Notes under the pieces: model-generated
What the model saw: the letters and a program-made list of their open reading frames with translations, nothing else
What the model was told of the DNA's origin: nothing
The model's database searches: none
Part shown: piece by piece, positions 1 through 44,227 of the stretch
Layout of the letters: each line of letters opens with the position of its first letter
Numbering within the stretch: position 1 is the stretch's first letter
NCBI GenBank assembly: GCA_012730105.1
Contig: JAAYBJ010000067.1
Location: forward strand, 1-45,980
DNA from: Candidatus Hydrogenedentota bacterium
Lineage (GTDB): Bacteria > Hydrogenedentota > Hydrogenedentia > Hydrogenedentales > CAITNO01
DNA: 45,980 nucleotides
Direction of reading: 5' to 3'
Translations under genes and position numbers: made by a program

Positions 1-1449
1 TGTGAGCAGACCGGCCCGGATGCCAAGGCGGAGGCGCTGCTCGACTGGCTCTACCGGCTTCAGTCCGAAGAAGGCGCCCCGGAATTGAAGGCGCTGGTAT
101 TCACTGAATTTGTTCCGACCCAGGAAATGCTGCGTGGATTCCTGACTGACCGAGGATTTTCTGTGGTATGCCTTAATGGTTCGATGAGCATGGAGGAGCG
201 CAAACGCGTCCAGGAGTCTTTCGCCAAGGATACGCGTATCCTCATCTCTACTGATGCAGGCGGTGAAGGGCTTAACCTGCAATTCTGCCACGTGGTGATC
301 AACTATGATATTCCCTGGAACCCCATGCGGCTCGAACAACGTATTGGCCGCGTGGACCGTATTGGACAAGTACACATCGTTCGTGCGGTAAACCTCGTCT
401 TTGAGGAATCGGTTGAACATCGCGTGCGGGAAGTATTGGAACAGAAGCTCGCCGTCATCTTTGAGGAATTCGGTATAGACAAAACAGGTGATGTCCTTGA
501 TTCTGCCGAGGCCGGCAAGATGTTTGACGAGATGTATGTCGAAGCACTTATGAACCCGGACAGGGTAGAAGATTCTGTAGACAGTGTAGTATCCCGGCTA
601 CACGAACAGGCCCGGGAGGCGCGGGAGACCGTCCGTGTGCTTGGCGAAACCGTCACCCTAGACCCTGATGAAGCGCAGCGTGTGCTGAACCATCCTCTCT
701 CGCACTGGGTCGAACGTATGACCGTCAGCTATTTGAAGGCCCACGGAGGTGATGCTGCCAGGAAAGGCGGAACATGGCGGCTTGCCTGGCCCAACGGCGA
801 TGTTGATGAATCCATCGTATTCACCAGCAGGGAAGCCGAGGAACTCCCCACTGCACGACATCTTACCTTGGAGGAGCCCCGTGTGCGGGGATTGGCCATG
901 CGGCTCCCGCGCTTCACTGTGGGGCAACCTATTCCAGTAGTCACCGTACCAGGTGCTCCGGAAGGGGTTGAAGGGTACTGGTCGCTTTGGCGCATCGGCC
1001 TTGCCACGCAGGATTATAATCGGCAATCCATTATGCCGCTCTTTCTGGCGGACAATGACGCTGTTTACATACCTACGGCCAGACGCATTTGGGACCAACT
1101 CCTCTCAAATGATGTCCACCACATCACCACGCTTGATTCTGAATCGTCTTTGCAAATAATAACTCGACTTGAAAAAGCCGCCGAAGAACATGGCCGTTCC
1201 ATTTATGAGGCACTTCAGCAGCAACACCAGGCGAGTATTGAACGTGAACGGGAAAAGGCCGACTATGCCTTTGAGGCACGGCGCAGGATGATAGCGAGGA
1301 TAGGCCTGCCGCAGGTACGTGATTACCGGCTGAATCTGTTGGCTGCCGAAGAACGCGCCGCGACAGAACAGATTGAACGTAAGGCCCAGGCCTATCCCGA
1401 AATGGTGCCGTTGCTTGTGATTCGGGTGGAAGGTGGGCATCATGAGTAG
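1..1449 (+). CDS. brxHII: BREX helicase, C-terminal part (BrxHII-type), 5' end outside window
   Basis: The reading frame is open from base 1, so this is the 3' part of a longer gene. The N-terminal half shows the helicase C-terminal lobe: a strand reading LVFTEF, the STDAGGEGLNLQ segment, and the motif VI-like stretch IPWNPMRLEQRIGRVDRIGQ, typical of SNF2/DEAD-like superfamily 2 ATPases. The remaining 300 residues or so are a charged, helical tail without a recognised motif. It is followed with overlap by pglZ and then brxA, which is the helicase-pglZ-brxA order described for type 3 BREX anti-phage systems; that placement drives the gene name. In BREX the helicase is thought to act with the methyltransferase and PglZ in excluding phage DNA, but its exact role is not settled. 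The missing upstream genes (expected brxF, brxC, pglX) cannot be confirmed here. Confidence 0.8.
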   Translation, partial: CEQTGPDAKAEALLDWLYRLQSEEGAPELKALVFTEFVPTQEMLRGFLTDRGFSVVCLNGSMSMEERKRVQESFAKDTRILISTDAGGEGLNLQFCHVVINYDIPWNPMRLEQRIGRVDRIGQVHIVRAVNLVFEESVEHRVREVLEQKLAVIFEEFGIDKTGDVLDSAEAGKMFDEMYVEALMNPDRVEDSVDSVVSRLHEQAREARETVRVLGETVTLDPDEAQRVLNHPLSHWVERMTVSYLKAHGGDAARKGGTWRLAWPNGDVDESIVFTSREAEELPTARHLTLEEPRVRGLAMRLPRFTVGQPIPVVTVPGAPEGVEGYWSLWRIGLATQDYNRQSIMPLFLADNDAVYIPTARRIWDQLLSNDVHHITTLDSESSLQIITRLEKAAEEHGRSIYEALQQQHQASIEREREKADYAFEARRRMIARIGLPQVRDYRLNLLAAEERAATEQIERKAQAYPEMVPLLVIRVEGGHHE

Positions 1450-3445
1450 TTGGCGTGACCAGATTCTGAATGAGTTTACCCCCCATGTCGCACGGCTTAC
1501 AATCGTTGCAGACCCCGATGGTGTGTTGCTGGAAGAAGGGATTCTGGAAGGCATCCGGGAGAAAGGCTTTGAGTTAATCCCATTTGATGACCATATCGCT
1601 TTTCGTTATGCTTACGAATCTAAATTTCGCTCACGCTGGGATCGGGGAGAACAAACGGAACTGGTCGTTGCATTACGCACCGATGCGGGCAATCTGGCAG
1701 CATTGCCTTATGATCTAGTAGTTGCGGGCCGTAAACTCGCGTTCCATCTGGGCGATATTTTTCCGAATCTCAGTTACCCTGTCGTAAGCGCGCTTGACCG
1801 GGGACATCTCGACACGCTCTACGATGCCCAACTTCGCTACGCCCCGGGACAACTGGGAGACAATGCAACCAAGGAGTTCATCCTTCGGCATGTCTTTGAG
1901 ATCGCACCCGAACTTATCAAGCAGCCATCCGACCTTCTCCGTGTGTTGCTTCGCCGACATTACCGTGGCGAACGTGTGCCAAAGAATCTCGATGACCGTT
2001 TTATTCAACTCCTTCTCCAGAGTGGCTATTTTGAGGATTGGCCACTCGATGAGTTGGTAAAGGACAGAGAACGATTCTTTGCCTTTCTTCAAGAACGGTG
2101 GCTCATTTTTTTGGAGAAGCAAGAAAATGCGGGACTTACTGCTCGTGATGGCGTTGAGCAGTACGGTTTAACCATTAAAGGCCCCTTGGACTTGCCCTTT
2201 GATCATGATGATATCCGGGTCTATGTTGATAATCTCTTTGTCGAAGGACTGCTGCAACCCGTGGCAGTAGCGACTCATGAAGGGCTCTCAGAAACTTGGA
2301 TGGGGATTGGTATTAGAGGAAAAAGTCAGCAACAAGACGCTAAGAATCGCCTGCCCAAACTACTAGAAACCATCCGGCAATCGGTTCCAGCATCGGACGC
2401 CAAACATATGGAGTGGCTGCAGTTCGCGCGCAAATGGGCCGAATTGATTCATTTGCTATGTCAACAGCCGTCATCTGTCGAAAAGGCACAAGAAGATACG
2501 GGAGACCTGAAATCTCTCGTGGATACCGCTTTTACGGATTGGCTCACTAAACGATATGCGGGGCTGATTAATTTGCCGCCCGTTCCACCTGTTATGTTGC
2601 ACCATCTGCCAAGATTTCTCGCCCGCGAGATGTGTGATAATGACTGTTCAAGAATTGCATTTGTTGTCATTGACGGTCTCGCAATGGATCAGTGGTTGAT
2701 CGTGCGTGACGTACTCCAGTCCCGCCAAACGGGACTTCGTTTTCGAGAAACCGCTGTATTTGCATGGGCGCCGTCGCTCACATCAGTCTCGCGGCAAGCC
2801 GCTTTTTCTGGGAAACCACCTATATTCTTTCCAAACAGTATTCAGACTACCGACAAGGAATCGGATCTCTGGACACAATTCTGGGCGGATAATGGATTGG
2901 GCAGCAGTGAGGTTGTATATGTAAAAGGGCTGGGGGATGCTATGTCTGATACCCTGTTGGCCGATATCGCCCGTCCCAAGGTGCGTGTTGCAGGAATGGT
3001 CGTTGACAAGGTCGACAGAATCATGCACGGTATGGAGATGGGAACCGCAGGCATGCATAATCAAGTCCGCCAATGGGCAATGGCGCCTTTTCTCGGAGAC
3101 CTGCTCGAAGCGCTCTGTGATAACGGTTTTCTCGTGTACTTAACCTCTGATCATGGGAATATCGAAGCACGGGGTTGTGGACGTCCATCAGAAGGGTGCG
3201 TAGCGGATGTACGGGGCGAACGTGTCCGCATCTATCCGGATGCAACACTTAGAAGCAATGTAAAAGCCCATTTTCCTGCTGCCTTGGAGTGGGATATAAC
3301 CGGCCTGCCGGAGAACTACTTTCCACTTATGGCGCCCCCACGCCAGGCGTTCATCCGAAAAGATGAGAAGACTGTCTGTCATGGCGGGCTATCTGTTGAG
3401 GAGTTGATCGTTCCCTTGGTAAAAGTAGAAAGAAAACGAAAATGA
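1442..3445 (+). CDS. pglZ: BREX alkaline-phosphatase-superfamily protein PglZ
   Basis: A 667-residue PglZ-family protein, the core marker of BREX/Pgl phage-defence systems. The C-terminal half carries the phosphatase-superfamily PglZ domain: a hydrophobic strand ending in VVIDGLAMDQW (about residues 403-416), which supplies the usual metal-binding Asp, and a downstream LTSDHGNIEARG motif with the Asp-His pair. The N-terminal half looks alpha-helical and is typical of the family. A GTG at 1433 is in frame, but the ATG at 1442 has GGAAGG just upstream (near 1428) and gives the natural N-terminus MSSWRDQIL, so it is preferred. The gene overlaps the helicase gene by 8 bp and shares an ATGA with brxA, indicating one translationally coupled operon. 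No frameshift or missing core motif was seen. Confidence 0.88.
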   Translation: MSSWRDQILNEFTPHVARLTIVADPDGVLLEEGILEGIREKGFELIPFDDHIAFRYAYESKFRSRWDRGEQTELVVALRTDAGNLAALPYDLVVAGRKLAFHLGDIFPNLSYPVVSALDRGHLDTLYDAQLRYAPGQLGDNATKEFILRHVFEIAPELIKQPSDLLRVLLRRHYRGERVPKNLDDRFIQLLLQSGYFEDWPLDELVKDRERFFAFLQERWLIFLEKQENAGLTARDGVEQYGLTIKGPLDLPFDHDDIRVYVDNLFVEGLLQPVAVATHEGLSETWMGIGIRGKSQQQDAKNRLPKLLETIRQSVPASDAKHMEWLQFARKWAELIHLLCQQPSSVEKAQEDTGDLKSLVDTAFTDWLTKRYAGLINLPPVPPVMLHHLPRFLAREMCDNDCSRIAFVVIDGLAMDQWLIVRDVLQSRQTGLRFRETAVFAWAPSLTSVSRQAAFSGKPPIFFPNSIQTTDKESDLWTQFWADNGLGSSEVVYVKGLGDAMSDTLLADIARPKVRVAGMVVDKVDRIMHGMEMGTAGMHNQVRQWAMAPFLGDLLEALCDNGFLVYLTSDHGNIEARGCGRPSEGCVADVRGERVRIYPDATLRSNVKAHFPAALEWDITGLPENYFPLMAPPRQAFIRKDEKTVCHGGLSVEELIVPLVKVERKRK

Positions 3446-20199: not shown

Positions 20200-22374
20200 A
20201 TGAAACACCGACTCCCCTTGCTTCTGTTCTTGCCCGCAACAATGTTGTTCTCCGCGTTCGCTTTCGGCGAGGAGATTCCGGTCGAGCCGTATTCGTCACA
20301 GCCGACAGCCAGCGAGATGGCGTTCGTCGCACAATGGAAACAGTTTCTCCTCGGACAAGGGGACGCTGCCGCCGGGCGTTACATCGGCGACCTCCCTTTC
20401 TCTTTCCTCTGCGGTCAACGAAGCAGCCGGGAATGGGTTACAATCGACACAGCCAACATCACGTCAGGCGGGTGGCAGGATGACAGGACGCGCACGCATG
20501 TTTTGAGTTGGCAAGACGTCCAGACCTCGCTATATTGCGAAATGGAACTGACCGAGTTTCAGGATTTCCCCGCCTTCCAATGGGTTGTCCGCGTCCGAAA
20601 CGACGGAGAAGCCGATTCCGCAAAGATTCACGATTTCTGGGGGATCGACACCTGCTGGCATGGATCCGACGCTTCGATGCCGATGCTGCACCGTTCGGTC
20701 GGCTCTCCGGGGCATGAGGATGATTTTCACTTCATGAGCGAGGTCATGCACAATTCGATGTGGGACAAACGCCGCCGGATAGCCATGGACACGCCCTCAA
20801 ACGCCGCCTGGGCGCAGGCACACGCCTACCTCATTCCGACGGATAAACGTTCGAGCGCGATCTGGCTGCCGTTCTTCAACTATCAGACCGGCGGCGACGG
20901 GCTGATCGCCGGACTCGGCTGGAGCGGCGCATGGCGCGCCTATTTTGATCACCAGGGGGAAGGGAAATCAACGATCCTGGCCGGTGTCGAAAACTTCGAT
21001 TCGATCCTTCATCCCGGCGAAACAGTAAGGTCGACGTTGAATTTAGTTCTCTACTGGCAGGGAGAGGTCCTCCATGGCCAAAACATGTTTCGCAGGCTGG
21101 TCCTGCAGCAGTATTCGCCGCGCATCAAGGGAGAACTGGTCGAGCCGCCGGTTTCCGGAGTCGTCTGGGGAGGGATTCCGTCTAAGGAGCACCTCGAAAT
21201 TATCGAAAAAATCAAATCGTATACGATTCCCCTGGACGTCTATTGGTTTGACGCCGGTTGGTACGGAACAGGGGTTGTACCGTCGTATTCCGTTTTTGAG
21301 GGTGACTGGGGGCCTATGGCCGGGGATTGGCGGCCGAACCCGAACTGGCATAATGGCACGCTCACACCGGTCAGCGACGCCGCGCACGCGGCAGGCATGA
21401 AGTTCCTGGTCTGGGTCGAACCCTGCCGCGCCATTCACGGCCGGCCGGTCACACTCGAACATCCTGAGTATTTTTTGACCGGGAATGCCGACGGCCAGAT
21501 CCGGGACGGGCAAACACTTCTTCTCGACCTCGGCAAGCCGGAATCATTGAAGTGGGCGACCGATGTCGTGAGCGGTCTGATCAGGGATTACAACATCGAT
21601 TGGTACGAAGAGGATTTCAATATTGAACCGAATCCTTACCTGGAAACAGCGGCAGAACCCGACCGCTGGGGCATGAACGAGATGCGGTTCATCGAGGGCC
21701 ATTTCGCCTTTTGGGACGCGCTTCGCGCAGCATTCCCGCACCTGGCCATTCTCAATTGCGCCAGCGGCGGACGGCGCATCGACCTGGAATCGATTTCGCG
21801 CGGGCAACCGCTCTGGCGGAGCGATTACAACTGCTTTCCGGAAGCGACCGCGGAGTCGACGCAGGATCACAGTTACGGCATTCAGCATTGGCTCCCGGTC
21901 CAAGGAAGCGCGACGCGAGGCTGGACGATCCTGGATACCTATGACGCCCGCAGCGCCTTGAACCCCGGCATGGAAAACTGGCTCGTTGCCAAGACGGAGA
22001 CGGAATGGCTCCAGATCAAGGCGAATGTCGTTCAGGCACAACGCTGCAAGAAGTACTTTTTTGGCGATTATTATCCCCTGACCCACACACAACGCGATCC
22101 GGCTGCCTGGACAGCGTATCATCTCTATCTTCCGAAAGAAGATGCAGGCATGATACTCGCCTTGCGCCGCGCGAAGAGCGATGTCCGGGAGATGACCTTT
22201 GATCTTTTGACGGTTCATCCGGCGGTGCAATGGAAGTTCGAGGATTATGATTCGGGAGAAAGCTGGGTATTAGACGGGAAGCAGATTCGCGAAGCGGGGT
22301 TCACGATTGAAATTCCGAACCGGCGCGATTCGCGGCTTATCTTTTACTCCATCGAACGCGCAAATAACCCATGA
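20200..22374 (+). CDS. Secreted GH36-type alpha-galactosidase
   Basis: A 724-residue exported glycosidase. Residues 1-23 form a Sec signal peptide. A beta-sandwich N-terminal domain (to about residue 310) precedes a (beta/alpha)8 barrel of the GH36/melibiase type: VYWFDAGWYGTG, FLVWVEPCRAIHG, LLLDLGKPESLKW, then the nucleophile in DWYEEDFN (Asp472), NCASGGRRIDLE, and the acid/base in WRSDYN (Asp542), 70 residues downstream as in GH36. The C-terminal 150 residues form the beta domain. It should release alpha-linked galactose (or a related sugar) from oligosaccharides outside the cytoplasm. AAGGA precedes the ATG. It is first of three co-directional secreted-enzyme genes. Confidence 0.9.
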   Translation: MKHRLPLLLFLPATMLFSAFAFGEEIPVEPYSSQPTASEMAFVAQWKQFLLGQGDAAAGRYIGDLPFSFLCGQRSSREWVTIDTANITSGGWQDDRTRTHVLSWQDVQTSLYCEMELTEFQDFPAFQWVVRVRNDGEADSAKIHDFWGIDTCWHGSDASMPMLHRSVGSPGHEDDFHFMSEVMHNSMWDKRRRIAMDTPSNAAWAQAHAYLIPTDKRSSAIWLPFFNYQTGGDGLIAGLGWSGAWRAYFDHQGEGKSTILAGVENFDSILHPGETVRSTLNLVLYWQGEVLHGQNMFRRLVLQQYSPRIKGELVEPPVSGVVWGGIPSKEHLEIIEKIKSYTIPLDVYWFDAGWYGTGVVPSYSVFEGDWGPMAGDWRPNPNWHNGTLTPVSDAAHAAGMKFLVWVEPCRAIHGRPVTLEHPEYFLTGNADGQIRDGQTLLLDLGKPESLKWATDVVSGLIRDYNIDWYEEDFNIEPNPYLETAAEPDRWGMNEMRFIEGHFAFWDALRAAFPHLAILNCASGGRRIDLESISRGQPLWRSDYNCFPEATAESTQDHSYGIQHWLPVQGSATRGWTILDTYDARSALNPGMENWLVAKTETEWLQIKANVVQAQRCKKYFFGDYYPLTHTQRDPAAWTAYHLYLPKEDAGMILALRRAKSDVREMTFDLLTVHPAVQWKFEDYDSGESWVLDGKQIREAGFTIEIPNRRDSRLIFYSIERANNP

Positions 22375-22496
22375 ATGCCTCCACCTGCGTTGAACTACTC
22401 TTTCCGTACGCAAAATTGCGGCAAAATCGTTTGTCTTTTTGTTAGACCTTCGGATATCGTAGGGTTCATTCGAAATGCTTCTTAAGGAGTTTTCCC

Positions 22497-24680
22497 ATGT
22501 TACGTTCAATTGCAATTATTGTTGTTGCCCTGGTATTGGTTTTGGGAATCACGCCGGGCGCGCTTGCGCAGACGCCGGAAAACGCGGCTGGAACATCGGA
22601 GGGGAGCGTGACGGTGTATCCCGCGCCGCCGGAAGAGCCGCTCTCCGAGGATTTTACGATAACGGTCGCGGGGCAGGCAGCGCCTGTTTATGTGTGCCGC
22701 GTGTCGGCGATGCCGTTTAATCAGGTTTGGCCGGGGTATCAGCGGCCTATCGACCAGACAGAGCTGGCTTCGTTCGTCTATTGGGATATGACAGCGCCGG
22801 TGGAGGTCGAGGTGGTCAGCGCACGCCCCGTCGAATCGGTGGCGATCCGGCCGACGGCCCGGGGTATTCAGCCGCAGGTCGAGGGCAACCGCATCCGCTT
22901 CCATCTGGATACGCCGCAACAGCTCGCCGTGGAAGTAAACGGATGGCACAAAGCCCTGCACATGTTCGCGAATCCGCCCGCGGTGACGGTAGACCCACAC
23001 GCAGCCGGTGTGCGGTATTTTGGCCCCGGCATCCATCGTCCGGGCAGGGTGACGTTGCAAAGCAATGAGACCGTCTATGTGGCGGGCGGGGCCGTGGTCT
23101 ATGGCTGTTTTGAAGCCGCCGACGCCACAAATATTAAGATTCTGGGGCCGGGCATCATTGACTCGAGCGAGCTGGAGCGGTACTTCGGGCTCACTGACGA
23201 GAGCAAGTACCTCGACAACTTCGGCGGTTGCATTCATCTTGTGCGTTGCGCCAATGTGACGATCGACGGCCCGATTCTGCGCGATCCGCCGCTGTGGTGC
23301 TTGTCTGCGTTCAATTGTTCGGAGATACAGATTACCCATATCAAACTGATCGGTCTCTGGCGGTACAACGCCGATGGCATCGACCTCTGCAACAGCCGGA
23401 ATGCGACCGTGCTCGACTGTTTCGTGCGCTCGTTCGACGACAGCCTCGTGGTCAAGGGGTTGAGTTACTATAAGGACGTGCCAATCAGCAATATCCTGTT
23501 CGAGCGTTGCGTCGTGTGGAACGAGTGGGGTCGTGCGCTCGAGATAGGCGCCGAGACGGCTTCGCCCGAAATCTCGCAGGTCACGTTCCGCGATTGCGAT
23601 GTCGTGCGGACCGCCGAAATCGCCATGGATGTGCAACACGGCGATCGCGCGGCCATTCACGACGTGACATTTGAACGGATCCGGCTCGAAGTCGACGACG
23701 TCAACTATGCGCCACAGATACAGAACGGCCGCGACGCGACCTATACAGGCCAGCCGGGCCATCGCCCGCACTTCTTGGTCTTGGTGATCCTTCGCGGCGC
23801 ATGGTCGACCGATCGGGAGCGTGGCACGATGCGCAACATCGTCGTGCGCGACTGCTCGACGACGGGCAAGCTGCTTCCACCTTCTGCGCTGTCGGGTTTC
23901 GACGAAACGCACGACGTCAAGGGCGTCATGATCTCGAACATGCAGATCAATGGAAAAGTCGTCACGAGCTTGGAGGAAGCGGGGATCAGCGTGGGGCCCT
24001 TTGTCAGCGACGTACGCATCGAGGCTCCAAACGGCGGAGAAACCGCGCCAGGCACGGGGAAAAAGATCCTGTTTCTGGGCAACAGCATCACGCTGCATGG
24101 GCCAAATGAGTCCATCGGCTGGACGGGAAACTGGGGAATGGCCGCCAGCGCCGTGGAGAAGGATTATTTACATCTGGTGCTTCGAGCACTCTCCGAAATG
24201 CCCGAAAGCGGCTTTTCCGCGCCCAAATTCCGCGTGCTGAATATTGCCGATTTCGAGCGGCAATACGCCACCTTTCCCATTGAAGAGAAACTGCGGGAGG
24301 CCATCGATTTCAAGCCGGACCTGTTGGTTCTGGCCATCGGCGAAAATGTGGCCGATCTAACGACCGAGGAGTCCAAAGCGCAGTTCCACACGAGTTTGGA
24401 CACGCTCTTGAAAGCGTTCCAGAAGGACGGGGATCCGACGATTGTAGTGCGAAGCAACTTCGGGCCCTCCCCAACCAAAGACCCGATACTCAAACAAGCG
24501 GCGGCCGATGTGGGTGCACTCTTTGTCGATATCAGCGCGCTGGCCGGGGAGGAGGGCAACTATGCCCGTTCGGAGCGTCCGATCGCGCATGCCGGGGTGG
24601 CGGGGCATCCGGGTGATCGCGGGATGAAAGCGATTGCCGACGCGATTGTGGATGCGATCAAGAAGGGTCGGAAACCGTAG
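22497..24680 (+). CDS. Secreted GH28-like beta-helix protein fused to SGNH hydrolase
   Basis: A 727-residue exported protein. Signal peptide about 1-24; a beta-sandwich (residues 35-185) then a right-handed beta-helix (185-510) of the GH28/pectinase type. The aspartate triad is placed as in polygalacturonases: D293 in NADGID, D314 and D315 in SFDDSLVVK. The usual catalytic-region His of the GHG motif appears replaced (WGRALEIG, R346), so specificity may differ from polygalacturonase. Residues 520-725 form an SGNH-type domain: LFLGNSITLHG, a conserved-Asn region around VLAIGENVADL, and AGHPGDRGM near the end. This pairs glycan-backbone cleavage with esterase activity. AAGGAG lies 8 bp before the start. 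It follows the GH36 gene by 122 bp. Confidence 0.85.
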   Translation: MLRSIAIIVVALVLVLGITPGALAQTPENAAGTSEGSVTVYPAPPEEPLSEDFTITVAGQAAPVYVCRVSAMPFNQVWPGYQRPIDQTELASFVYWDMTAPVEVEVVSARPVESVAIRPTARGIQPQVEGNRIRFHLDTPQQLAVEVNGWHKALHMFANPPAVTVDPHAAGVRYFGPGIHRPGRVTLQSNETVYVAGGAVVYGCFEAADATNIKILGPGIIDSSELERYFGLTDESKYLDNFGGCIHLVRCANVTIDGPILRDPPLWCLSAFNCSEIQITHIKLIGLWRYNADGIDLCNSRNATVLDCFVRSFDDSLVVKGLSYYKDVPISNILFERCVVWNEWGRALEIGAETASPEISQVTFRDCDVVRTAEIAMDVQHGDRAAIHDVTFERIRLEVDDVNYAPQIQNGRDATYTGQPGHRPHFLVLVILRGAWSTDRERGTMRNIVVRDCSTTGKLLPPSALSGFDETHDVKGVMISNMQINGKVVTSLEEAGISVGPFVSDVRIEAPNGGETAPGTGKKILFLGNSITLHGPNESIGWTGNWGMAASAVEKDYLHLVLRALSEMPESGFSAPKFRVLNIADFERQYATFPIEEKLREAIDFKPDLLVLAIGENVADLTTEESKAQFHTSLDTLLKAFQKDGDPTIVVRSNFGPSPTKDPILKQAAADVGALFVDISALAGEEGNYARSERPIAHAGVAGHPGDRGMKAIADAIVDAIKKGRKP

Positions 24681-24712
24681 ACAAAAACGAGTCAGAAAGG
24701 GAAGGACTGACC

Positions 24713-27079
24713 ATGAGTAATTGCCTCGAACCCTGCGCCATCGTGAGGATCTGCAAGCGCCTCTCAACCTGTCGGGCGAAAAGTCCGTTCATTTTGATCG
24801 GGATCGTCATCTCGCACGCCCTATTTGCCGGGGCACAAGTGGCACGGCCCAATGAGGCCGGGGTGGCGGTAGTCGAGCGCGCTAATGAAACGCTGCAACC
24901 GGCGCAGGCGTTTGAAAATCTTGAAATGAAGGCTGGGGATTGGCAGGTGAAAAATGGCGCGTTGACGCAGGCGGACGCGGAGGCGCCGTATGCACGGGCT
25001 TTTATACGGGGGCCGCGCTGGTTGGACTGCGTTATCAAGGCGAAGGTGCGGGTGGATACTCTCGGCGCAACGGCGGCTTCGCCCGGGGTTCGGTTGATCG
25101 TCCGCGGCGATGAAACAACGGATACGTTCTACACCGTCGGCCTATGGGCGGGCAGCCGCGAGGTACGCATTGAAAAATCACGTGGACTGGCCTTCGAGCC
25201 CCTGAAGAGCGACCATTTGGGAAACCTGGCGGTCGCGCCGTTTCCGGTGGAACCGGGCAAAACCTATGAAATGACCGTGGTGACTGATCACGCGACAATC
25301 TACTGCTATATTGACGGCAACTTTGTGGTGCTGGGGCAAGAGCAGGATTTTACCACCCAGCCGGTGGGCCGGGTGGGTTTCTTCACCAACGCGGCGACCG
25401 GCGCGTTCAGTGACGTTTCCGTCAAGGGACTCTACGGCATCACGTCGTCGCCCGTCACGCCGTACGCGGGGAATCCAGTGAACCTGACAAACTATTCGCC
25501 TGCGGTAATCAAGGATGACAAGTTTCGGATGTGGGATTCGCTGCTGGGCCGGTATAACGAGTCGGTGGATGGCATCACCTGGACCTGGCCGGCGGGCAAG
25601 GAATCCGTCGTCAACCAGGACAACACGGGCGACTGGCCGACGGGCAACCAGTGCGGCGATCCCGACGTTCTCAAATGGGACGGCCACTACTGGATTACGT
25701 TCTGGTCCACCTGCAACCGCCGTAACGGAGCCTTTGATGGCATGGGCCTCAAGCGCTCGCCGGACGGCATCCACTGGACACCCGAACCGGCAAACCCGGT
25801 CTTTTACATGGGGCCGCTCGGGGACTGGGATGAGATAGTGGTAGGCGACCACGCCATGATCAGGGACGGGGACCGTTTCAAACTATGGCATGTCGGCATC
25901 ACGCGCGGGCAGCGGGGCTACCGGAATGAATTCGGCTACGCGGAGAGCAAAGACGGCATTCACTGGCGCAAGTGCCGCCTGAACCCGATTTTGACCCAGG
26001 GAAAACCAGGGACGTGGGACGGCGGCTGGATCTACGCAGCGGGCGTCGTGAAGATTGATGACGAGCCCTCCGGCACGCATGTGTATGCGGGCAAACCCGG
26101 CGCGAGCTATCACCTCTTTTACACGGGGCAACCCAGCAACAACGAAATCATCTGCGGCGTGAAACGCATCGGATATGCCTTTTCGCTCGACGGCGTCCAT
26201 TGGGTTAAATGGAACGACCCGAACACCGCCGAGCCGTTTCAAGACAGCGATCCGGTGGTGACCTGGTCGGCATATGGACAGAAAGGATTCACGGGCGTGG
26301 GCGCCGCCACGGCGATACTCCTTGGCGACGAAGTGCGCCTCTACTACTCAATGTATGAAGAGCGGCTGGACGTCGGGCGGCCACCCGAAGGGCCCGTCGG
26401 CACGGCGTTTGCCACAGTCAAGGTGGACGCCCTGCGACAACTCGTCGCGGATGCCAAGGCGAAGGACCTGCTCGAATGCGCAAGCCGCGAAGAGATGGAC
26501 GCCCTGCTCGATGACCCTTTGCCCCAGTCCATGTGGGACGATTTGCAGGGTCTCGTGCTGGCGGCGGTGCAGGCAAGGCAGTCCGGTGACGCGGATGGAG
26601 AGAAGTCTGCGCTGGCCAGGATCGCAGCCACCCGCGCCAAGTTTACCCAGGCCCTCGAACGTTATTATGCAGGCGCCTTTGCTCCACTGAAGAAGGTCGT
26701 GGACCGGTTGGAGGCTGGACTTCCCGTGACCGAGAACCTGCTCTGGAGTCTTCCGGCGGAAAACACGGGAAATAAGGAGCCACAGATTGAGTTTCCGAGT
26801 TTGAATATCGAGGCCGGGAATCATCCCGTTATGATCGAAATCGAGGCCAAGTGCGACCGTTTTGATGTCGCGAGAGTGGCATGGGCAACGGACGAGGGCG
26901 TTAAGGCCGGGCAGGAAATGGAGTTCATCGCCGGCTACCCCGGCGTGGAATTCCCAACGTACCGCGTCACGATTGACACCGGCGGTCACCCTATCACCGC
27001 ACTGCGACTCCAGTTCCCTGCTGGAGCCACTGTGGATCTGAAACAGGTCAGCATTCGCGGAATCAGCATGGATACATGA
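24713..27079 (+). CDS. Secreted multi-domain beta-propeller glycosidase-like protein
   Basis: A 788-residue protein, 32 bp after the beta-helix gene and probably in the same operon. A hydrophobic segment (FILIGIVISHALFAGAQ, about 26-42) acts as a signal peptide after an unusually long Cys-rich n-region. Residues 55-245 resemble a DUF1080/LamG-like beta-sandwich (LEMKAGDWQVKNGALTQ, CYIDGNFVVLGQEQDF). Residues 255-570 are a five-bladed propeller of the GH32/43/130-like class, with repeated SPDGIHW, SKDGIHW and SLDGVHW blades and GDPDVLKWDGHYWITFWS. Residues 590-680 are helical and the last 100 form a beta-sandwich. Substrate is unknown; acidic catalytic residues cannot be assigned with confidence. 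Confidence 0.8.
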   Translation: MSNCLEPCAIVRICKRLSTCRAKSPFILIGIVISHALFAGAQVARPNEAGVAVVERANETLQPAQAFENLEMKAGDWQVKNGALTQADAEAPYARAFIRGPRWLDCVIKAKVRVDTLGATAASPGVRLIVRGDETTDTFYTVGLWAGSREVRIEKSRGLAFEPLKSDHLGNLAVAPFPVEPGKTYEMTVVTDHATIYCYIDGNFVVLGQEQDFTTQPVGRVGFFTNAATGAFSDVSVKGLYGITSSPVTPYAGNPVNLTNYSPAVIKDDKFRMWDSLLGRYNESVDGITWTWPAGKESVVNQDNTGDWPTGNQCGDPDVLKWDGHYWITFWSTCNRRNGAFDGMGLKRSPDGIHWTPEPANPVFYMGPLGDWDEIVVGDHAMIRDGDRFKLWHVGITRGQRGYRNEFGYAESKDGIHWRKCRLNPILTQGKPGTWDGGWIYAAGVVKIDDEPSGTHVYAGKPGASYHLFYTGQPSNNEIICGVKRIGYAFSLDGVHWVKWNDPNTAEPFQDSDPVVTWSAYGQKGFTGVGAATAILLGDEVRLYYSMYEERLDVGRPPEGPVGTAFATVKVDALRQLVADAKAKDLLECASREEMDALLDDPLPQSMWDDLQGLVLAAVQARQSGDADGEKSALARIAATRAKFTQALERYYAGAFAPLKKVVDRLEAGLPVTENLLWSLPAENTGNKEPQIEFPSLNIEAGNHPVMIEIEAKCDRFDVARVAWATDEGVKAGQEMEFIAGYPGVEFPTYRVTIDTGGHPITALRLQFPAGATVDLKQVSIRGISMDT

Positions 27080-33228: not shown

Positions 33229-33626
33229 TGCTATTCTCCGTTTAAATAATACACTCAACAATCATGGGGAAAACGGAAAACGTGCGATGGCACACACTAC
33301 GGCTGGGGGGAAAAAGAACAGCCACCCCGGAACAGGCGGCTGGAAGGAAGCGAATTACGCTAATTTCAGCGAACCGACCGGGGGCGCGACATCGCACGAT
33401 GCACGACAATGACCATGAACTGCGCCTCCATTTTCTGTTGGATTATTCAAGAAACACTTTAATTTGCTGAATGTTTCCATACTATACACCATCCCATGAT
33501 TTTTTTCAAATTCGGTCCACTTTTCATTGGATAGGTGAAGGCTATTATTTATTCTTGCGCGGCGTTGCGTTATGATGTCAACAGCAGCTAGTCCGGCGTG
33601 TCATAGGAGTAAATGGAGGATCCTAT
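33229..33626. other. Gene-free stretch before the sigma-factor gene
   Basis: About 400 bp between divergent genes. I see no gene, no strong promoter match and no repeat beyond short runs such as GCGACATCGCACGATGCAC at 33386-33404. Confidence 0.35.
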
Positions 33627-36600
33627 ATGCTTACGATGCTTTTCGCGCGTTCGGATGCACATCTTGTTCGTCGGGTTCTGGGCGGCCACCAGAACGAGTT
33701 CGAAATGCTGGTGCGACGGTACCTGCCGGCGGTACTGGCCACAACGAAGAGTATTCTGCGCAACCCAACGGATGCGGAAGACGTGGCCCAGGAATCTTTC
33801 ATCGCCGCCTACCAGAAACTCGATTCGCTGAAAGCGCCCGAAAAATTTCCGGGGTGGCTGTTGACCATTGCGCGACACAACGCGCTTAATTGGCAGCGGA
33901 AAAATAAGCACGAAGTTCCTTTAAGCGATACGGCCCTGGAGTCGATTCCGGCGGTCCATCCCGAACCGGCCCGTCGCGAGATGCATGAAATGCTTCATCA
34001 CACTTTGCAGGAAGTGGATCAGGAGATACGTGAATTACTGTTGCTCCATTATTACGCTGGCTATTCGCTGCGCGAAATCAGCGGGATGTACGCGATTTCA
34101 CGGGTGGCAGCCGCGAAACGTCTTCAACGCGCCCGTGAAGCGCTCGGTGCGAAATTGGTGAAACAAATCCCGGAAATGGCCGGTTCCGCCGATATACGGA
34201 AAAAATCAAAGAAGATCGCTGCCGCCGCTTTTGCGGCGGGGGTGGTCTGGAAAGTCAAACCGGCGCACGGAATGATAATGGGATTCCTCCTTGGCGCGGG
34301 GAAACTGGCCGGCGCGGGGGGCGTTGTACTGACCATGGCCGCGACCGCGTTTTTCACGGCCCCCACCCTTTTCGATTGGAGTCCAAGTTTTCCAGAGAAT
34401 AACAAAACCACAGATGAAGCGCAACAAGATTCGACCGCTGCGGATGTGCCCCCGGCTACTGATGTCCAGGGACAGGAGGAATCTGTAGACCAGCATCCAG
34501 AAACCCTGTATTCTTTATCGAATGTGCTGGTCACCCCCCTGGATCAAGCGGTTGGCGGAGCGCAGGTAAAAGCGGAACGGATCACCTGGAAAGCCACGGA
34601 ACTTCCGCCTGACCATACGGATATCTACACGGCGCAAAGCGATGCTAACGGCGCGTTTACCCTGGAAAACATGCCGCCGGGCGTATATTCAGTTACGGCG
34701 ACCACGCGCGTCTTTGGCGGCGCCCATGACTTTCAAATTCAGGAAAACGGTGATGTCCGCGGACCGCGTAACGTCAAGATGTATCCCATGATTCGCTCTT
34801 ATGGACTGCTGGTGGATTCTTCCGGCGAAGCGGTACCCGGCGCCGTCATCTATCCGGTCAGCCACGAGCTGTTTTCCGGCGAGGAATTTGACCATGTGAC
34901 CGTTTGCGGCGTGCGGGCGCGAAGCGATTCGAAAGGGCGCTTCATGTTCGCCGGGATCATCCCCGGCGCCTGGAAACTGTATATTGTCGCGCCTAGACAC
35001 CAGCCTTTTTATACCGATTATGTGCCGTGTTACGGGCTGCGCTCCACCGTGGTTATCGAAACACCGGGCGTTTTACGCGGGTACACCGTGGATACGGAGG
35101 GGAATCCCATCGCAGGAATAAGCGGGATGGTTTACACCGGGATGCAGGCGAGGAGTTATGGGGACGAGGGGTCGAACTACCGTGTGAGCAATTCCTTCAC
35201 GTCGGACGCCGCAGGCGCCTTCGAGATAGCATCTTTGCCCCCGGACGAGTACTTCTTTAAGTTAAAAGACTCCGCGCTGATCCTCGCCTCACCCAACCAG
35301 AAGGCGGAGATACGGCCCGGCAAATCATCGGATATAGAACTACAACTTACAAGGGGGGGATCTGTTTCCGGACGTGTGCTGAATGCCACTACCGGGGAAG
35401 GCATCGCGGAAATAGAACTGCACCTATATTCGAACAACGCACATCCGCCCATGAGCAAGGAAGCCGTTACAAACGCTTCGGGGAACTACCTCTTCATGGG
35501 ATTGCCCGGGGGTTCCTACCAACTCAACCTCTTGTCCAACGACCAGTTTCCCATGGCCTATCGCGATACCGTAAACATAACCGTAAAACAAGGGGAAACC
35601 GTTACGGACCAGGACATCTCGCTCGTTCCTCCCATGCTGGTCAAAGGCGTGGTAGTCGATACGGAGGACCATCCTGTAGCTCGGGCGAAAGTAGATGGCT
35701 TAAACGAGCACGGAACAACGGCTTCGTGGGCAACCATGATCACCAAAGAGGATGGCTCGTTTACGCTCGCATTCCCGGAAGGCGGCGAAATTTCTCTTCT
35801 GGCGAAAAATGATTCCTCCAGAAGCGAAACGGTTACTGTAACACTCAGCGCCGAAACGCCGGAAGTGGAAACGGTATTAATCCTTTCCGTCGCCGCCAGC
35901 GCAGGCATCGAAGGTATTGTGCGCGATATAAACGGCAAACCTGTCTACAATGCCGACGTTGGGGCTTATCCAATTCATAGAGACGGCCGCCTGACTCCTT
36001 CTGATTCCAATTACGGGCACACGAGCCCAAAAGGCACATTTAGTATTACAGGCCTGTTGCCGGGCAAATACACCGTAACCGCAACGCTACAAACCGGAAG
36101 GCACCTGGGCACTATCGATGTGGATGTGGCGAACAATCAAATAACACGCGATGTGCTTATCCAGGAAATGCCCGAAGGCAACCTTACCATTGAGGGCACG
36201 CTCTACTATCCAAACGGCCTGCCCTGTCCCGTAGCCGCATTGGGATTGGACAACAGCCAACTGGTCCCGTGCGGGGCCCTTGGACGATTCGCATTCACCC
36301 GGTTGGGACCGGGAACGCACACTATATACGCCTTGTCTCCGGGGTATTCGCCACTGGCCGTATCGGGTATCGCCGCAGGCACGCAAAACCTCAAACTGGT
36401 CCTGCAGAAATTCGCCGTCCTGACCGGCATCGTAACCAATGCACAGACCGGAAAGCCCGTAACTGATTTCTCGGTGCAATACGCTATGTTGGCTTCCCCG
36501 CCTTTTGATACGGGTGGTATTGAAAGCGGTCAAGCCGGGTTCGCCGATCCCAACGGCCAATTCCGCATGGAAAGAATTCCTGTAACCGGCATTCAGGTTA

Positions 36601-37253
36601 TAATTCAGGCGACCGGTTTCGCACCCTGGCAGACAACATTAAAAGAACTCATAAGTGGTGAGGGCAACCATGTGGACGCGGCACTCAGTCCGGCCGCAGG
36701 CATAACGGGGGTTGTTTTCGACGCCTCGGGCAAAGCACTTCCAAAAGTCAGGGTAAATGCGCCTTCCTCAAACACCGTCACAGACGCAAATGGTGCGTTT
36801 TCATTGGATAACCTCCCTGCGGGAGAGGAAATCAAGATGGCCTTTTCCTGTCCGGGCTATGCCTCTACTTCCGTGTATGCCGTAGCCGGATCGGGAGCAA
36901 CCATAACCGTGACGCTGGTTGTGGGCGGAACGTTGCGGATTCACGCCGTTAAGGACGGCCAGCCCCTCAACTCCTTCAGTGCGCTTGTAAAGCACGTGGA
37001 ACCTGAGATAGCGCAGGTTGCCGGGGAACACTATTTTGCCACCCGTGGCGGCGAAATCGTCGCACAAAACGTCTATCCCGGAGAAGTTGAAATTACAACC
37101 AGCATCATAGACGAGAACACTCCCAGGCCGGCATTGCCCGTTGGCAAGGCGCTCGCAATTGTTGAAGAAGGCCAGGAAACCGTTGTTGTCGTCGAAGAGT
37201 TGCCCATAGAGCAGCAAGAGGCGCACTTTCCGGAAAATACGATGGAACAGTAA
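33627..37253 (+). CDS. ECF sigma factor fused through a membrane segment to carboxypeptidase-regulatory-like repeats
   Basis: A 1208-residue protein. Residues 22-92 are the ECF sigma-2 domain (FEMLVRRYLPAVLATT, NPTDAEDVAQESFIAAYQKL); residues 125-178 are sigma-4 (EIRELLLLHYYAGYSLREI, then the HTH with VAAAKRLQRAREAL). After a lysine-rich stretch comes one hydrophobic segment (about 215-245, GMIMGFLLGAGKLAG onward), then an acidic linker and around ten tandem carboxypeptidase-regulatory/Cna-B-like beta domains, each with a GxFxLxxLPxGxYxL-type core. So the sigma part faces the cytoplasm and the repeats the outside or periplasm. Some planctomycete-type ECF groups carry such extensions, and a signal sensed outside may free or gate the sigma domain. 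No anti-sigma gene is adjacent. GGAGG precedes the ATG. Confidence 0.87.
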   Translation: MLTMLFARSDAHLVRRVLGGHQNEFEMLVRRYLPAVLATTKSILRNPTDAEDVAQESFIAAYQKLDSLKAPEKFPGWLLTIARHNALNWQRKNKHEVPLSDTALESIPAVHPEPARREMHEMLHHTLQEVDQEIRELLLLHYYAGYSLREISGMYAISRVAAAKRLQRAREALGAKLVKQIPEMAGSADIRKKSKKIAAAAFAAGVVWKVKPAHGMIMGFLLGAGKLAGAGGVVLTMAATAFFTAPTLFDWSPSFPENNKTTDEAQQDSTAADVPPATDVQGQEESVDQHPETLYSLSNVLVTPLDQAVGGAQVKAERITWKATELPPDHTDIYTAQSDANGAFTLENMPPGVYSVTATTRVFGGAHDFQIQENGDVRGPRNVKMYPMIRSYGLLVDSSGEAVPGAVIYPVSHELFSGEEFDHVTVCGVRARSDSKGRFMFAGIIPGAWKLYIVAPRHQPFYTDYVPCYGLRSTVVIETPGVLRGYTVDTEGNPIAGISGMVYTGMQARSYGDEGSNYRVSNSFTSDAAGAFEIASLPPDEYFFKLKDSALILASPNQKAEIRPGKSSDIELQLTRGGSVSGRVLNATTGEGIAEIELHLYSNNAHPPMSKEAVTNASGNYLFMGLPGGSYQLNLLSNDQFPMAYRDTVNITVKQGETVTDQDISLVPPMLVKGVVVDTEDHPVARAKVDGLNEHGTTASWATMITKEDGSFTLAFPEGGEISLLAKNDSSRSETVTVTLSAETPEVETVLILSVAASAGIEGIVRDINGKPVYNADVGAYPIHRDGRLTPSDSNYGHTSPKGTFSITGLLPGKYTVTATLQTGRHLGTIDVDVANNQITRDVLIQEMPEGNLTIEGTLYYPNGLPCPVAALGLDNSQLVPCGALGRFAFTRLGPGTHTIYALSPGYSPLAVSGIAAGTQNLKLVLQKFAVLTGIVTNAQTGKPVTDFSVQYAMLASPPFDTGGIESGQAGFADPNGQFRMERIPVTGIQVIIQATGFAPWQTTLKELISGEGNHVDAALSPAAGITGVVFDASGKALPKVRVNAPSSNTVTDANGAFSLDNLPAGEEIKMAFSCPGYASTSVYAVAGSGATITVTLVVGGTLRIHAVKDGQPLNSFSALVKHVEPEIAQVAGEHYFATRGGEIVAQNVYPGEVEITTSIIDENTPRPALPVGKALAIVEEGQETVVVVEELPIEQQEAHFPENTMEQ

Positions 37254-37485: not shown

Positions 37486-37613
37486 TTGGAAACCGGCCTT
37501 GGTTTCTTGATGATCGCCATTCAACAGATACAGCCTATTTTATCCATCGATCCGAATAGAACACGCCTATTTGCTTCTCTTTTCACAGGCATGCTATTTT
37601 GAGTCGAGGCTTT

Positions 37614-39758
37614 ATGACTGTCAAACGAATCACGCTTATAACCTTAATCGCCCTAAGCATCCTCGCTCTCGCCCTGGCGCTTCCCTATTGTGCTTCCGGG
37701 ACGCCGGACCCGACGCTAGCGCCCGGGGTGGCCATAGGGCATCAGCCCGCCCCATCCCTGCTGGAGCTTGCCACTGGACAGGACCAATATGTCGGTTCCC
37801 CTTCCATTACAATACTTGCCGACGGGACCTACATCGCCTCCCATGATGTGTTCGGCCGGGGTTCCTCGCAGGATACGTCCGGAATCACCAAGATATACCG
37901 CTCGACGGATCGGGGCAACCACTGGACGCAAACGGCGGTGCTTGAAGGGCAATTCTGGTCCACTGTATTCGCGCACAACGACGCGCTTTATGTGTTCGGC
38001 TATGCCCATAGAAGCGGCAATATCGTTATCCGGAAATCCCTTGACAGCGGATTTACCTGGACCACGCCCTCAAATGAAAATAACGGCCTGCTCCGGACGG
38101 GCAAGTTCGGCGGCACGTCCAATTGCCCGGTGATCCATGACGGTCGCTTATGGATCAGCCAGAGTACGCGTCTCATGTCCGCGCCTGTGAATGCCGATTT
38201 ACTTCGGGCCGATTCCTGGACATTGTCCAAGGGCGTATCCCAGGACAAGCAATGGCTGGGCGGGAACTTCACGTTCTGGTCCGAGGGCCAGGTGGTCGCA
38301 TCGCCAAAGGAAGGGGTGGTCGTGTTGCCCAAAGTCAACCAGATACCCTGTACGGCGATTCTTCGCGCGGAAAGTCCGGCAAGACTTTCTTTCAACCCCG
38401 AGACGGATTTCGCGGCCGTTCCAGGGGTGGAAAAAAAATTCGGCGCGGTGTACGACCCGGTCTCCGAACACTTTTATATTTGCTCAAATCCCGTCCTGCC
38501 CGCGCACAAGGATGACTGGCGTTATGGCACCCGGCCTGCCATGATCCGAAACGCCGCGGCATTGCTCTCCTCTGCGGACCTGCATCATTGGCGTGTTGAA
38601 AAATTCTTTCTCTATTCGCCCGATATGCACCATGAAGCCTTCCAGTATTTCAATTTCGTGGTTGACGGCAATGACCTTGCCGCGGTTTCACGCACCTCCT
38701 TCAAAATCGGGGGGTATAAACCGCCCCGAGGCCATGATTCAAACCTGATGACCTTTCACCGCATCCCGAATTTTCGCGAGGCGGCTCCCGTACATGACCT
38801 GGAGATTGACGGCGACCACATAGTGCGTTATGAACAGACGCAGTATGAACGGATGCCGCTGGGGGTATTTGCGCCGAAGTTGCCCTATGCGGGGAAGAGA
38901 CTGCACAAACCGGTCGGGCTCGCCCAGGATGAAGCAGGCGATGTTTATATCCAAGAAGAGGGCGGCCGCGTGCTCAAGTTCGATGCAGTGGGCAATTTCC
39001 TGGAAAACGCAGCCCATCCTCCCCCGCTCCTCTTTGAGAAATCACTTTTCAACGTGCGCCGACCGGCGCCGGGGCTGTGCTCCTGGACCGGCACGGTATC
39101 CCGGGCTTGGGACGAACCGGCCAACTGGTTTTACTGGGGACGTCCCGATACACCGGCGGAAACGGCGCTTTTCGGAACCGCCGGCGATGTCCGCGAACCG
39201 GTCCTCCTCGATCACTTTTTTCGGGTAAAAGGCCTTCGGTTTCAAACCCTGTCCGATGTTACAGTTGCGGGTTGCGGCTCCCTCATTATCGATGCCGGTG
39301 ACGGCGAGGGAACCCTGGAAGTTGTCTGCGGCGGGCACGCGCTCCAACTTCCGATACTGCTCTTCAGCCCAGCGCGCCTGCGGATAGCCTCCGGCGCGGA
39401 ACTTGTTTTTGAGGGTTCCCTGGACCTTGGCGGGCAGACTCTTACCCTTGACGGTCCGGAATCCCCCATGATAAACGGTCCCTTTAAAATGAACGGCGGG
39501 AAACTGGTAACAATACCAGGGCATCCGATCCGTCTGGGCAATCCGTCCCAGGCAACGTTTGATGGAACTCTCGAAGTGATTCTTCTCGAAGGAAAAGTAT
39601 TCAAAGCGGGTGACAGTTATCAAGTACTGGACTTCACCCGGCCACCCTCGGCTCGTTTCAGGGCCATAGACCTGCCCGTGCTTCCTGCCGGCCTTGCATG
39701 GGATACGACAGCGCTTTACACGAATGGCAGCATCACGGTGCGCCAGGTCGGCAGTTGA
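37614..39758 (+). CDS. Secreted sialidase-like protein with autotransporter-type beta-strand C-terminus
   Basis: A 714-residue exported protein. Signal peptide about 1-28 (ITLITLIALSILALALALP). Residues 45-450 resemble a six-bladed sialidase/BNR propeller: SPSITILADGTYIASHDVF, IYRSTDRGNHWTQ and IRKSLDSGFTWTTP (Asp-box repeats), and YDPVSEHFYICSNP. The C-terminal part (from about 490: CSWTGTVSRAWDEPANWF, then repeating beta-strand units) looks like the passenger-associated beta-helix strands of PEP-CTERM or autotransporter proteins. It should act on a glycan outside the cytoplasm, though the Arg triad of sialidases was not identified. ATG 37614 is preferred; TTG 37599 is an alternative. Confidence 0.8.
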   Translation: MTVKRITLITLIALSILALALALPYCASGTPDPTLAPGVAIGHQPAPSLLELATGQDQYVGSPSITILADGTYIASHDVFGRGSSQDTSGITKIYRSTDRGNHWTQTAVLEGQFWSTVFAHNDALYVFGYAHRSGNIVIRKSLDSGFTWTTPSNENNGLLRTGKFGGTSNCPVIHDGRLWISQSTRLMSAPVNADLLRADSWTLSKGVSQDKQWLGGNFTFWSEGQVVASPKEGVVVLPKVNQIPCTAILRAESPARLSFNPETDFAAVPGVEKKFGAVYDPVSEHFYICSNPVLPAHKDDWRYGTRPAMIRNAAALLSSADLHHWRVEKFFLYSPDMHHEAFQYFNFVVDGNDLAAVSRTSFKIGGYKPPRGHDSNLMTFHRIPNFREAAPVHDLEIDGDHIVRYEQTQYERMPLGVFAPKLPYAGKRLHKPVGLAQDEAGDVYIQEEGGRVLKFDAVGNFLENAAHPPPLLFEKSLFNVRRPAPGLCSWTGTVSRAWDEPANWFYWGRPDTPAETALFGTAGDVREPVLLDHFFRVKGLRFQTLSDVTVAGCGSLIIDAGDGEGTLEVVCGGHALQLPILLFSPARLRIASGAELVFEGSLDLGGQTLTLDGPESPMINGPFKMNGGKLVTIPGHPIRLGNPSQATFDGTLEVILLEGKVFKAGDSYQVLDFTRPPSARFRAIDLPVLPAGLAWDTTALYTNGSITVRQVGS

Positions 39759-43174: not shown

Positions 43175-44227
43175 TCAGGATTTCCCGCCGGGCAGCACCC
43201 AATGGGTTAAATCACGGCTCCAGGCGAGGCCCAACGCACCCCCGTGGGCATTACGGGCAACGCGATCCCCATGGAAAACCATGAGCCAACAGCCAAGATG
43301 CGCCTTACGGTCCAGCACCATGGGCGCGGTCGGACCGTTGTCGGCCCAGGTTACTTCCGGAAAGTCCTGATAACGAATTTCAGACCAGTCCAGCAGATTA
43401 TCGGAACGGGCAACACCGATACCGCGTCCTTTTCGGGTGGGTGAAAAGAACATGACCCACGCTCCCCCATCACGCACCAGGCAGACATTTTCCATGCCCG
43501 CGTGATCGGGCGTGTCTTTGCTGCTTAAAACCGGCCTGTCCGGAAGGGCCTCCTCCCACTGGTACAGGTCATCGGACATCAACAGCCCTATTTGTCCGTC
43601 AGTTTTATAGAAGCACCAGAATTTACCGTCATGCTCCACGACACATGGATCAATCTGGCGGCGCGATTTTGCCCAGCGGGCGGTGCATCCTTCCGGTTTG
43701 ATGGGTCTTGGGACATCCCAGGTCTCCAGATCGGCGCTTTCCATCAGCCAGAGCCGCGCTGCTTCACTTCCGTAAGTTTCACCGGGAGGGATCGGATAAC
43801 TCTGCAAGGCCATAATCCATCGGTTCCTATACCGGATAATGCTCCCAGGACTGGAGAATCCCAGCGGATCGCAAAGCAGTCGTCGGGGCGCCGACCAGTG
43901 CAGCAAATCTTTCGAACGAATTTCATCCAGGTTCAGACGATAGCCGGAAGATGTTTCTTCAACTGCCGTGTAATAACAATGATACAGGCCCTCATGTTCA
44001 AGCAACAAGGGATCACGCGCTGATACGGTCGGATCAAGATCCAATATCGGATTATGCCACGTTTTAATTGTTGCTGAACGCGCATCTTGTTGACCGCTTT
44101 GGACGGCATCCGTCGCAGCATCTTCCGCCGATATAACGATGGACAAGCCAACTGTGAAATATAGGGTTCCTGAAATCATGAATACAACGGAAATGATTCC
44201 GTACTTTTTAAGACAAAGAGATATCAT
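43175..44227 (-). CDS. Secreted five-bladed-propeller glycosidase-like protein (GH43/GH32/GH68 superfamily type)
   Basis: A 350-residue exported protein. The signal peptide (about 1-33) precedes a propeller with the start HNPILDLDPTVSARDPLLLEHEGLYHCYYTA, where SARDPLL gives the expected first acidic residue; further blades read RSKDLLHWSAP, QIDPCVVEHDGKFWCFYKT, GMENVCLVRDGGAWVMFFS (a likely catalytic Glu), and WSRDLTHWVLPGG. The substrate is unknown. A promoter with extended -10 TATAGT lies at 44267-44294. It is the only gene on this side of the ALDH palindrome, on the same strand, with no clear terminator between. Confidence 0.82.
   Translation of the reverse strand: MISLCLKKYGIISVVFMISGTLYFTVGLSIVISAEDAATDAVQSGQQDARSATIKTWHNPILDLDPTVSARDPLLLEHEGLYHCYYTAVEETSSGYRLNLDEIRSKDLLHWSAPRRLLCDPLGFSSPGSIIRYRNRWIMALQSYPIPPGETYGSEAARLWLMESADLETWDVPRPIKPEGCTARWAKSRRQIDPCVVEHDGKFWCFYKTDGQIGLLMSDDLYQWEEALPDRPVLSSKDTPDHAGMENVCLVRDGGAWVMFFSPTRKGRGIGVARSDNLLDWSEIRYQDFPEVTWADNGPTAPMVLDRKAHLGCWLMVFHGDRVARNAHGGALGLAWSRDLTHWVLPGGKS

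Follow-up and report, generated by a model that had tools for sequence, protein, structure and literature searches.

How can a sigma factor that is covalently joined, through one membrane segment, to a long chain of repeats control transcription? This question is raised by an uninterrupted open reading frame in a 45,980-nt stretch of DNA from Candidatus Hydrogenedentota bacterium (the window), for which a first-pass annotation had proposed an ECF sigma factor with ten or so extracellular beta domains, possibly sensing a glycan or surface state directly, without an anti-sigma factor, and had pointed to secreted glycosidase genes as a place to look for a conserved promoter motif. The account towards which we lean, if only modestly, is one of transmembrane signalling by a single protein, with two-step proteolytic release of the sigma domain and positive autoregulation.

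An intact sigma factor and its predicted topology

The fusion itself is as first described: an intact ORF encodes, in one chain, Pfam-recognised sigma domains, a single transmembrane (TM) helix and an ectodomain (Table 1). Matches to Sigma70_r2 (1.8e-15) and Sigma70_r4_2 (4e-6), without sigma3, give the layout of an ECF sigma factor, and both Pfam and TIGR02937 scores lie above cut-off; the nearest NCBIfam subfamily, TIGR02989, was matched at 83.7 bits, below its cut-off of 124.6. The AF2 model has a pLDDT >90 over most of both domains, and its fold matches AlgU, SigW and E. coli sigmaE in structure comparison. The core-binding motif DAEDVAQE is intact in region 2, D52, Q55 and W77 are invariant in an alignment of 20 members, and the region-4 helix is kept across the family alignment. 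The worry that the sigma domain might lack core-binding residues can therefore be put aside, as far as prediction tells. The orthologue from a genome of the same genus (G002) is 89% identical, with a dN/dS that rises from 0.06 in sigma2 to 0.20 across the repeats; judged from this pair, purifying selection is strongest in the sigma part, and the acidic linker is the least conserved part.

Table 1. Features of the fusion gene and its upstream region (positions in the window)
Feature	Position	Strand	Basis
Putative autoregulatory ECF-type promoter (-35 TGTCAAC, 17-nt spacer, -10 GTCATA)	33576..33605	+	
-35 TGTCAAC	33576-33582	+	
-10 GTCATA	33600-33605	+	
Ribosome-binding site GGAGG	33615..33619	+	sequence
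Whole ORF, ECF sigma - TM - CarboxypepD_reg fusion, 1208 aa	33627..37253	+	
Sigma region 2, residues 28-94	33708..33908	+	Pfam PF04542; AF2 pLDDT >90
Sigma region 4, residues 121-173	33987..34145	+	Pfam PF08281; AF2
Juxtamembrane stretch, residues 179-225 (near-invariant I197, invariant W208)	34161..34301	+	alignment
Single transmembrane helix, about residues 226-248	34302..34370	+	hydropathy and insertion scores
Acidic, disordered-looking linker, about residues 249-302 (candidate site-1 cleavage region)	34371..34530	+	charge counts
Nine CarboxypepD_reg transthyretin-like repeats, residues 303-1100	34533..36926	+	Pfam, repeat profile, fold
C-terminal ~108 residues, no repeat-profile match	36927..37250	+	

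Between the sigma domain and the membrane lies a positively charged juxtamembrane stretch, in which the Trp and Ile listed in Table 1 stand out among 20 members. A structural role for the Trp motif was considered and set aside, since AF2 confidence is low there and the alignment behind the model held one other sequence with this stretch. Pfam found no FecR-like anti-sigma domain in the 1208-aa protein and no zinc-finger between sigma and TM, and there is no Cys within residues 180-255.

By hydropathy, one hydrophobic segment (~217-250) suits a membrane helix. Across 87 family members, a set picked from strong matches mostly with long reading frames, there is likewise one TM (median start at residue 230) and no second candidate, which speaks against a topology with two TMs and cytoplasmic repeats. 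Net charge averages +2.9 in the 60 residues before the TM and -4.3 in the 60 after it, and is more positive before it in 80 of the 87. In 25-residue flanks K+R are unbiased (1.6 before vs 1.8 after), the difference coming from acidic residues after the TM. Because of this charge bias the sigma domain is predicted to be cytoplasmic and the repeats to lie outside the cell, both TM and topology being predictions since the position weighting of the insertion scale is an approximation. An extracellular ectodomain, as originally suggested, is thus what prediction favours over repeats in the cytoplasm. The 64 family ectodomains examined mostly come from families usually found outside the cytoplasm.

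The ectodomain belongs to CarboxypepD_reg (PF13620; 1.7e-67, 224 bits vs a gathering cut-off of 32.3), and iterative profiling built on the protein's repeats delimits nine of them (303-376, 392-480, 483-577, 580-656, 672-748, 761-843, 855-929, 932-1023 and 1026-1100). One repeat, modelled at pLDDT 87, has the fold of the transthyretin-like domain found in carboxypeptidase D (5aq0, TM 0.73-0.78). The C-terminal ~108 residues are possibly a diverged tenth domain, and "ten or so" was a fair count for nine repeats plus this unassigned end.

A promoter that covaries with the sigma domains

The fusion genes of the family share an upstream ECF-type motif, TGTCMAC-N16/17-GTCWAT or, more loosely, TGTC(A/C)(A/C)C-N15/16 and a GTCTAT-like -10, which lies about 20 nt (median about 21 nt) before the start codon. 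When learned by EM over 79 upstream regions, it reached a log-likelihood of 342, vs 33-43 on four mononucleotide shuffles. At the gene studied here the sequence combines an AAC-type -35 with a CGT-type -10 (TGTCAAC-N17-GTCATA), and near orthologues have AAC or CAC, N16, then CGTCA or TGTCA. Between this genome and that of the same-genus orthologue, the ~88 bp leading up to the start codon differ hardly at all, and farther upstream the sequences do not align.

The two promoter elements vary with the domains expected to read them. In partial Mantel tests, -35 distance follows sigma4 when sigma2 is controlled for (partial r 0.20, P 0.001) but does not follow sigma2 when sigma4 is controlled for (partial r 0.001, P 0.50). 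Conversely, -10 distance follows sigma2 with sigma4 controlled for, at borderline significance (partial r 0.10, P 0.05), and does not follow sigma4 with sigma2 controlled for (partial r 0.05, P 0.22). The spacer, used as a control, follows neither. These effects are modest, and paralogues inherit promoter and gene jointly; a signal of that kind is, however, absent from the spacer control. The pairing of -35 with sigma4 and of -10 with sigma2 therefore suggests that each fused sigma factor probably recognises its own promoter.

What else it might transcribe was sought with a strict pattern, GTCMAC-N17-GTCATA, which occurs 10 times in five orthologue genomes. Five occurrences lie upstream of the fusion gene, which carries the site in promoter position in all five genomes, and the other five are inside or off genes, none in clear promoter position (the count leaves aside one weak intergenic site near C93:39519 and another near C118:20050). 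In the genome under study the fusion-gene site is the only strict match in promoter position. One-mismatch sites were as common as in the reversed control, and revealed no further target beyond the fusion gene. The conserved promoter motif that had been anticipated does exist, but it stands at the sigma gene itself and not at glycosidase genes: the window holds no second copy, even at two mismatches, and glycosidase targets are left without support. So is a glycan signal, as the adjacent gene for a secreted-looking protein is not kept beside orthologues. That gene (37599-39755) was rejected as a glycosidase target on both counts, lacking conservation beside orthologues and any promoter site with up to two mismatches in the window; its 719-aa product looks secreted and has no Pfam match, and the gene has no sigma-type promoter.

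Elsewhere, the window contains adjoining melibiase-like and GH28-like genes together with a gene whose 788-aa product has no Pfam match (20200-27076), a GH43-like gene (43178-44227) and a gene for a 670-aa PglZ-domain protein (1433-3442), PglZ being a domain of phage defence and of other signalling proteins too.

A phylum-wide family and its known counterparts

What was first presented as a single protein is in fact one member of a phylum-wide family, with relatives in 64 of 68 Hydrogenedentota genomes (E <= 1e-30) and up to 20 per genome, a minority of these matches being unfused or truncated at contig ends. The 5.63-Mb genome studied here has one strong member; G002 has its orthologue, and G001 and G003 are without a full-length one. 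Within the family the sigma-TM part is kept while ectodomains vary: CarboxypepD_reg accounts for 50 of 64, and PQQ_2, STN, YtkA and Sel1 occur once or a few times each. The only close named relatives carrying the tether are from Candidatus Hydrogenedentota (L063 and L083), and a sigma-domain tree is compatible with one clade of Hydrogenedentota fusions (p-AU 0.80, the one-clade constraint scoring 24 likelihood units above a free quick search). At L050, L051 and L061, sigma-TM-ectodomain fusion genes stand in tandem pairs that look like duplications. The genome studied here also has a second fusion, L005 (G000:C49:34195-34818, minus strand), with one TM and CarboxypepD_reg-like sequence, in which region 2 of the sigma domain is decayed, reading ALADKVVVETF where DAEDVAQE would be expected; it is a possible pseudo-sigma partner.

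Gene neighbourhoods offer no obvious partner. The neighbours of our gene, a divergently oriented FAD oxidoreductase gene and a 4Fe-4S gene, are kept only in the same-genus genome. Near ~20 family loci no partner, anti-sigma or protease family recurs among the 25 commonest of 120 neighbour families, a tally that could miss families occurring once. The absence of an anti-sigma factor, part of the first-pass annotation, thus holds for the genes adjoining the fusion and for the tallied neighbours.

The body plan is already known from other bacteria. IutY of Pseudomonas putida (ECF243), a sigma/anti-sigma hybrid (PMC8999054, PMC5411451) that the proteases Prc and RseP release (PMC8999054), likewise has an ECF sigma factor in one chain with a membrane segment and a periplasmic part. 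Unlike the Hydrogenedentota fusion, it has an anti-sigma domain and pairs with an outer-membrane receptor, whereas here no anti-sigma domain is recognisable and transthyretin-like repeats, one after another, make up the ectodomain. ECF52, represented by SCO4117 of Streptomyces coelicolor, is similar in layout (an ECF sigma factor and a TM, followed by a proline-rich linker and a binding domain outside the cell), and both positive autoregulation and excision of the sigma factor by an uncharacterised protease have been proposed for it (PMC5826349); what sets it apart is a zinc-finger anti-sigma-like domain placed between sigma and TM, and its restriction to Actinobacteria (PMC5826349). In planctomycetes, ECF57 proteins have WD40 C-terminal extensions (PMC8999054), some ECFs of Tuwongella are reported in detergent-soluble fractions (PMC8567305), and we found in Gemmata sp. 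IIL30 twelve fusions (L301-L312) of ECF sigma-TM to CarboxypepD_reg, WD40, HlyD adaptor or DUF1559 sequences, which we tentatively place with ECF57, by WD40 resemblance only. These are alike in joining an ECF sigma factor through one TM to a large ectodomain and in being heavily paralogous (two Gemmata members even have CarboxypepD_reg), but the Gemmata fusions form a separate sigma clade (support 100), have their own short motif before the TM (LxEGVxxxM...K), and show no Hydrogenedentota-type promoter upstream, by eye. New here are the Hydrogenedentota clade, its Trp motif, the evidence on its promoter and the fact that no anti-sigma domain can be recognised in it. The family is large and apparently undescribed, no publication on it having been found in the part of the key ECF literature that was searched.

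A proposed route from ectodomain to promoter

Since the sigma factor is tethered and no anti-sigma gene is adjacent, either proteolysis or function at the membrane would be needed. In the account that we favour, whose release step is adopted from IutY, (i) one helix would hold the sigma domain at the cytoplasmic face of the membrane, with the nine-domain ectodomain serving as an outward sensor or binding stalk, (ii) engagement of, or damage to, the ectodomain would let a site-1 protease cut the acidic linker, (iii) a site-2 (RseP-type) protease would then cut within the membrane, (iv) the freed sigma domain with its juxtamembrane tail would bind RNA polymerase and (v) the released sigma would transcribe its own gene from TGTCAAC-N17-GTCATA, creating positive feedback. 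The linker fits the first cut because site-2 proteases require a large ectodomain to be removed beforehand. Among the proteases encoded in the genome are one of the M50 family, RseP-type, and two of the S41 family, both of them near-universal families.

The rival that survives best, itself rather unlikely in our estimate, has the sigma factor working while still tethered, with the ectodomain altering juxtamembrane conformation or oligomery and RNA polymerase being recruited to the membrane without proteolysis. It would explain why the juxtamembrane stretch, with its invariant W208, is conserved beyond what a passive tether needs, and it suits the lack of a dedicated protease adjoining the gene, but IutY, the membrane-fused ECF that has been characterised, becomes active through proteolytic release (PMC8999054). 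Less likely still is control by an unlinked partner (an anti-sigma factor, a kinase or a decayed sigma paralogue), with the ectodomain mainly an anchor or stalk: L005 could serve, but ECF partners are usually encoded nearby and none recurs near the ~20 loci, and ectodomains differ while sigma-TM stays, as sensor swapping predicts. That the protein is mainly a surface protein, its sigma domain a remnant or merely sustaining its own expression, would suit the decay of sigma in L005 and the want of a clearly promoter-placed strict site outside its own gene, but is improbable given intact core-binding and promoter-binding segments and tighter constraint on sigma2 than on the ectodomain.

If the proteolytic-release account is true, the uncultured phylum Hydrogenedentota would control transcription across the membrane with one polypeptide and no anti-sigma factor, up to ~20 times per genome, and would offer dozens of natural, diverged sigma/promoter specificity pairs, making the question of how paralogous ECFs are insulated directly testable in E. 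coli. A bolder extension, which we think rather doubtful, is that these proteins are, phylum-wide, self-amplifying surface receptors, each sigma factor serving mainly its own promoter, so that sensed contact boosts the same receptor with no separate anti-sigma factor. Should such private loops be real, they would amount to a bacterial receptor repertoire with per-receptor feedback.
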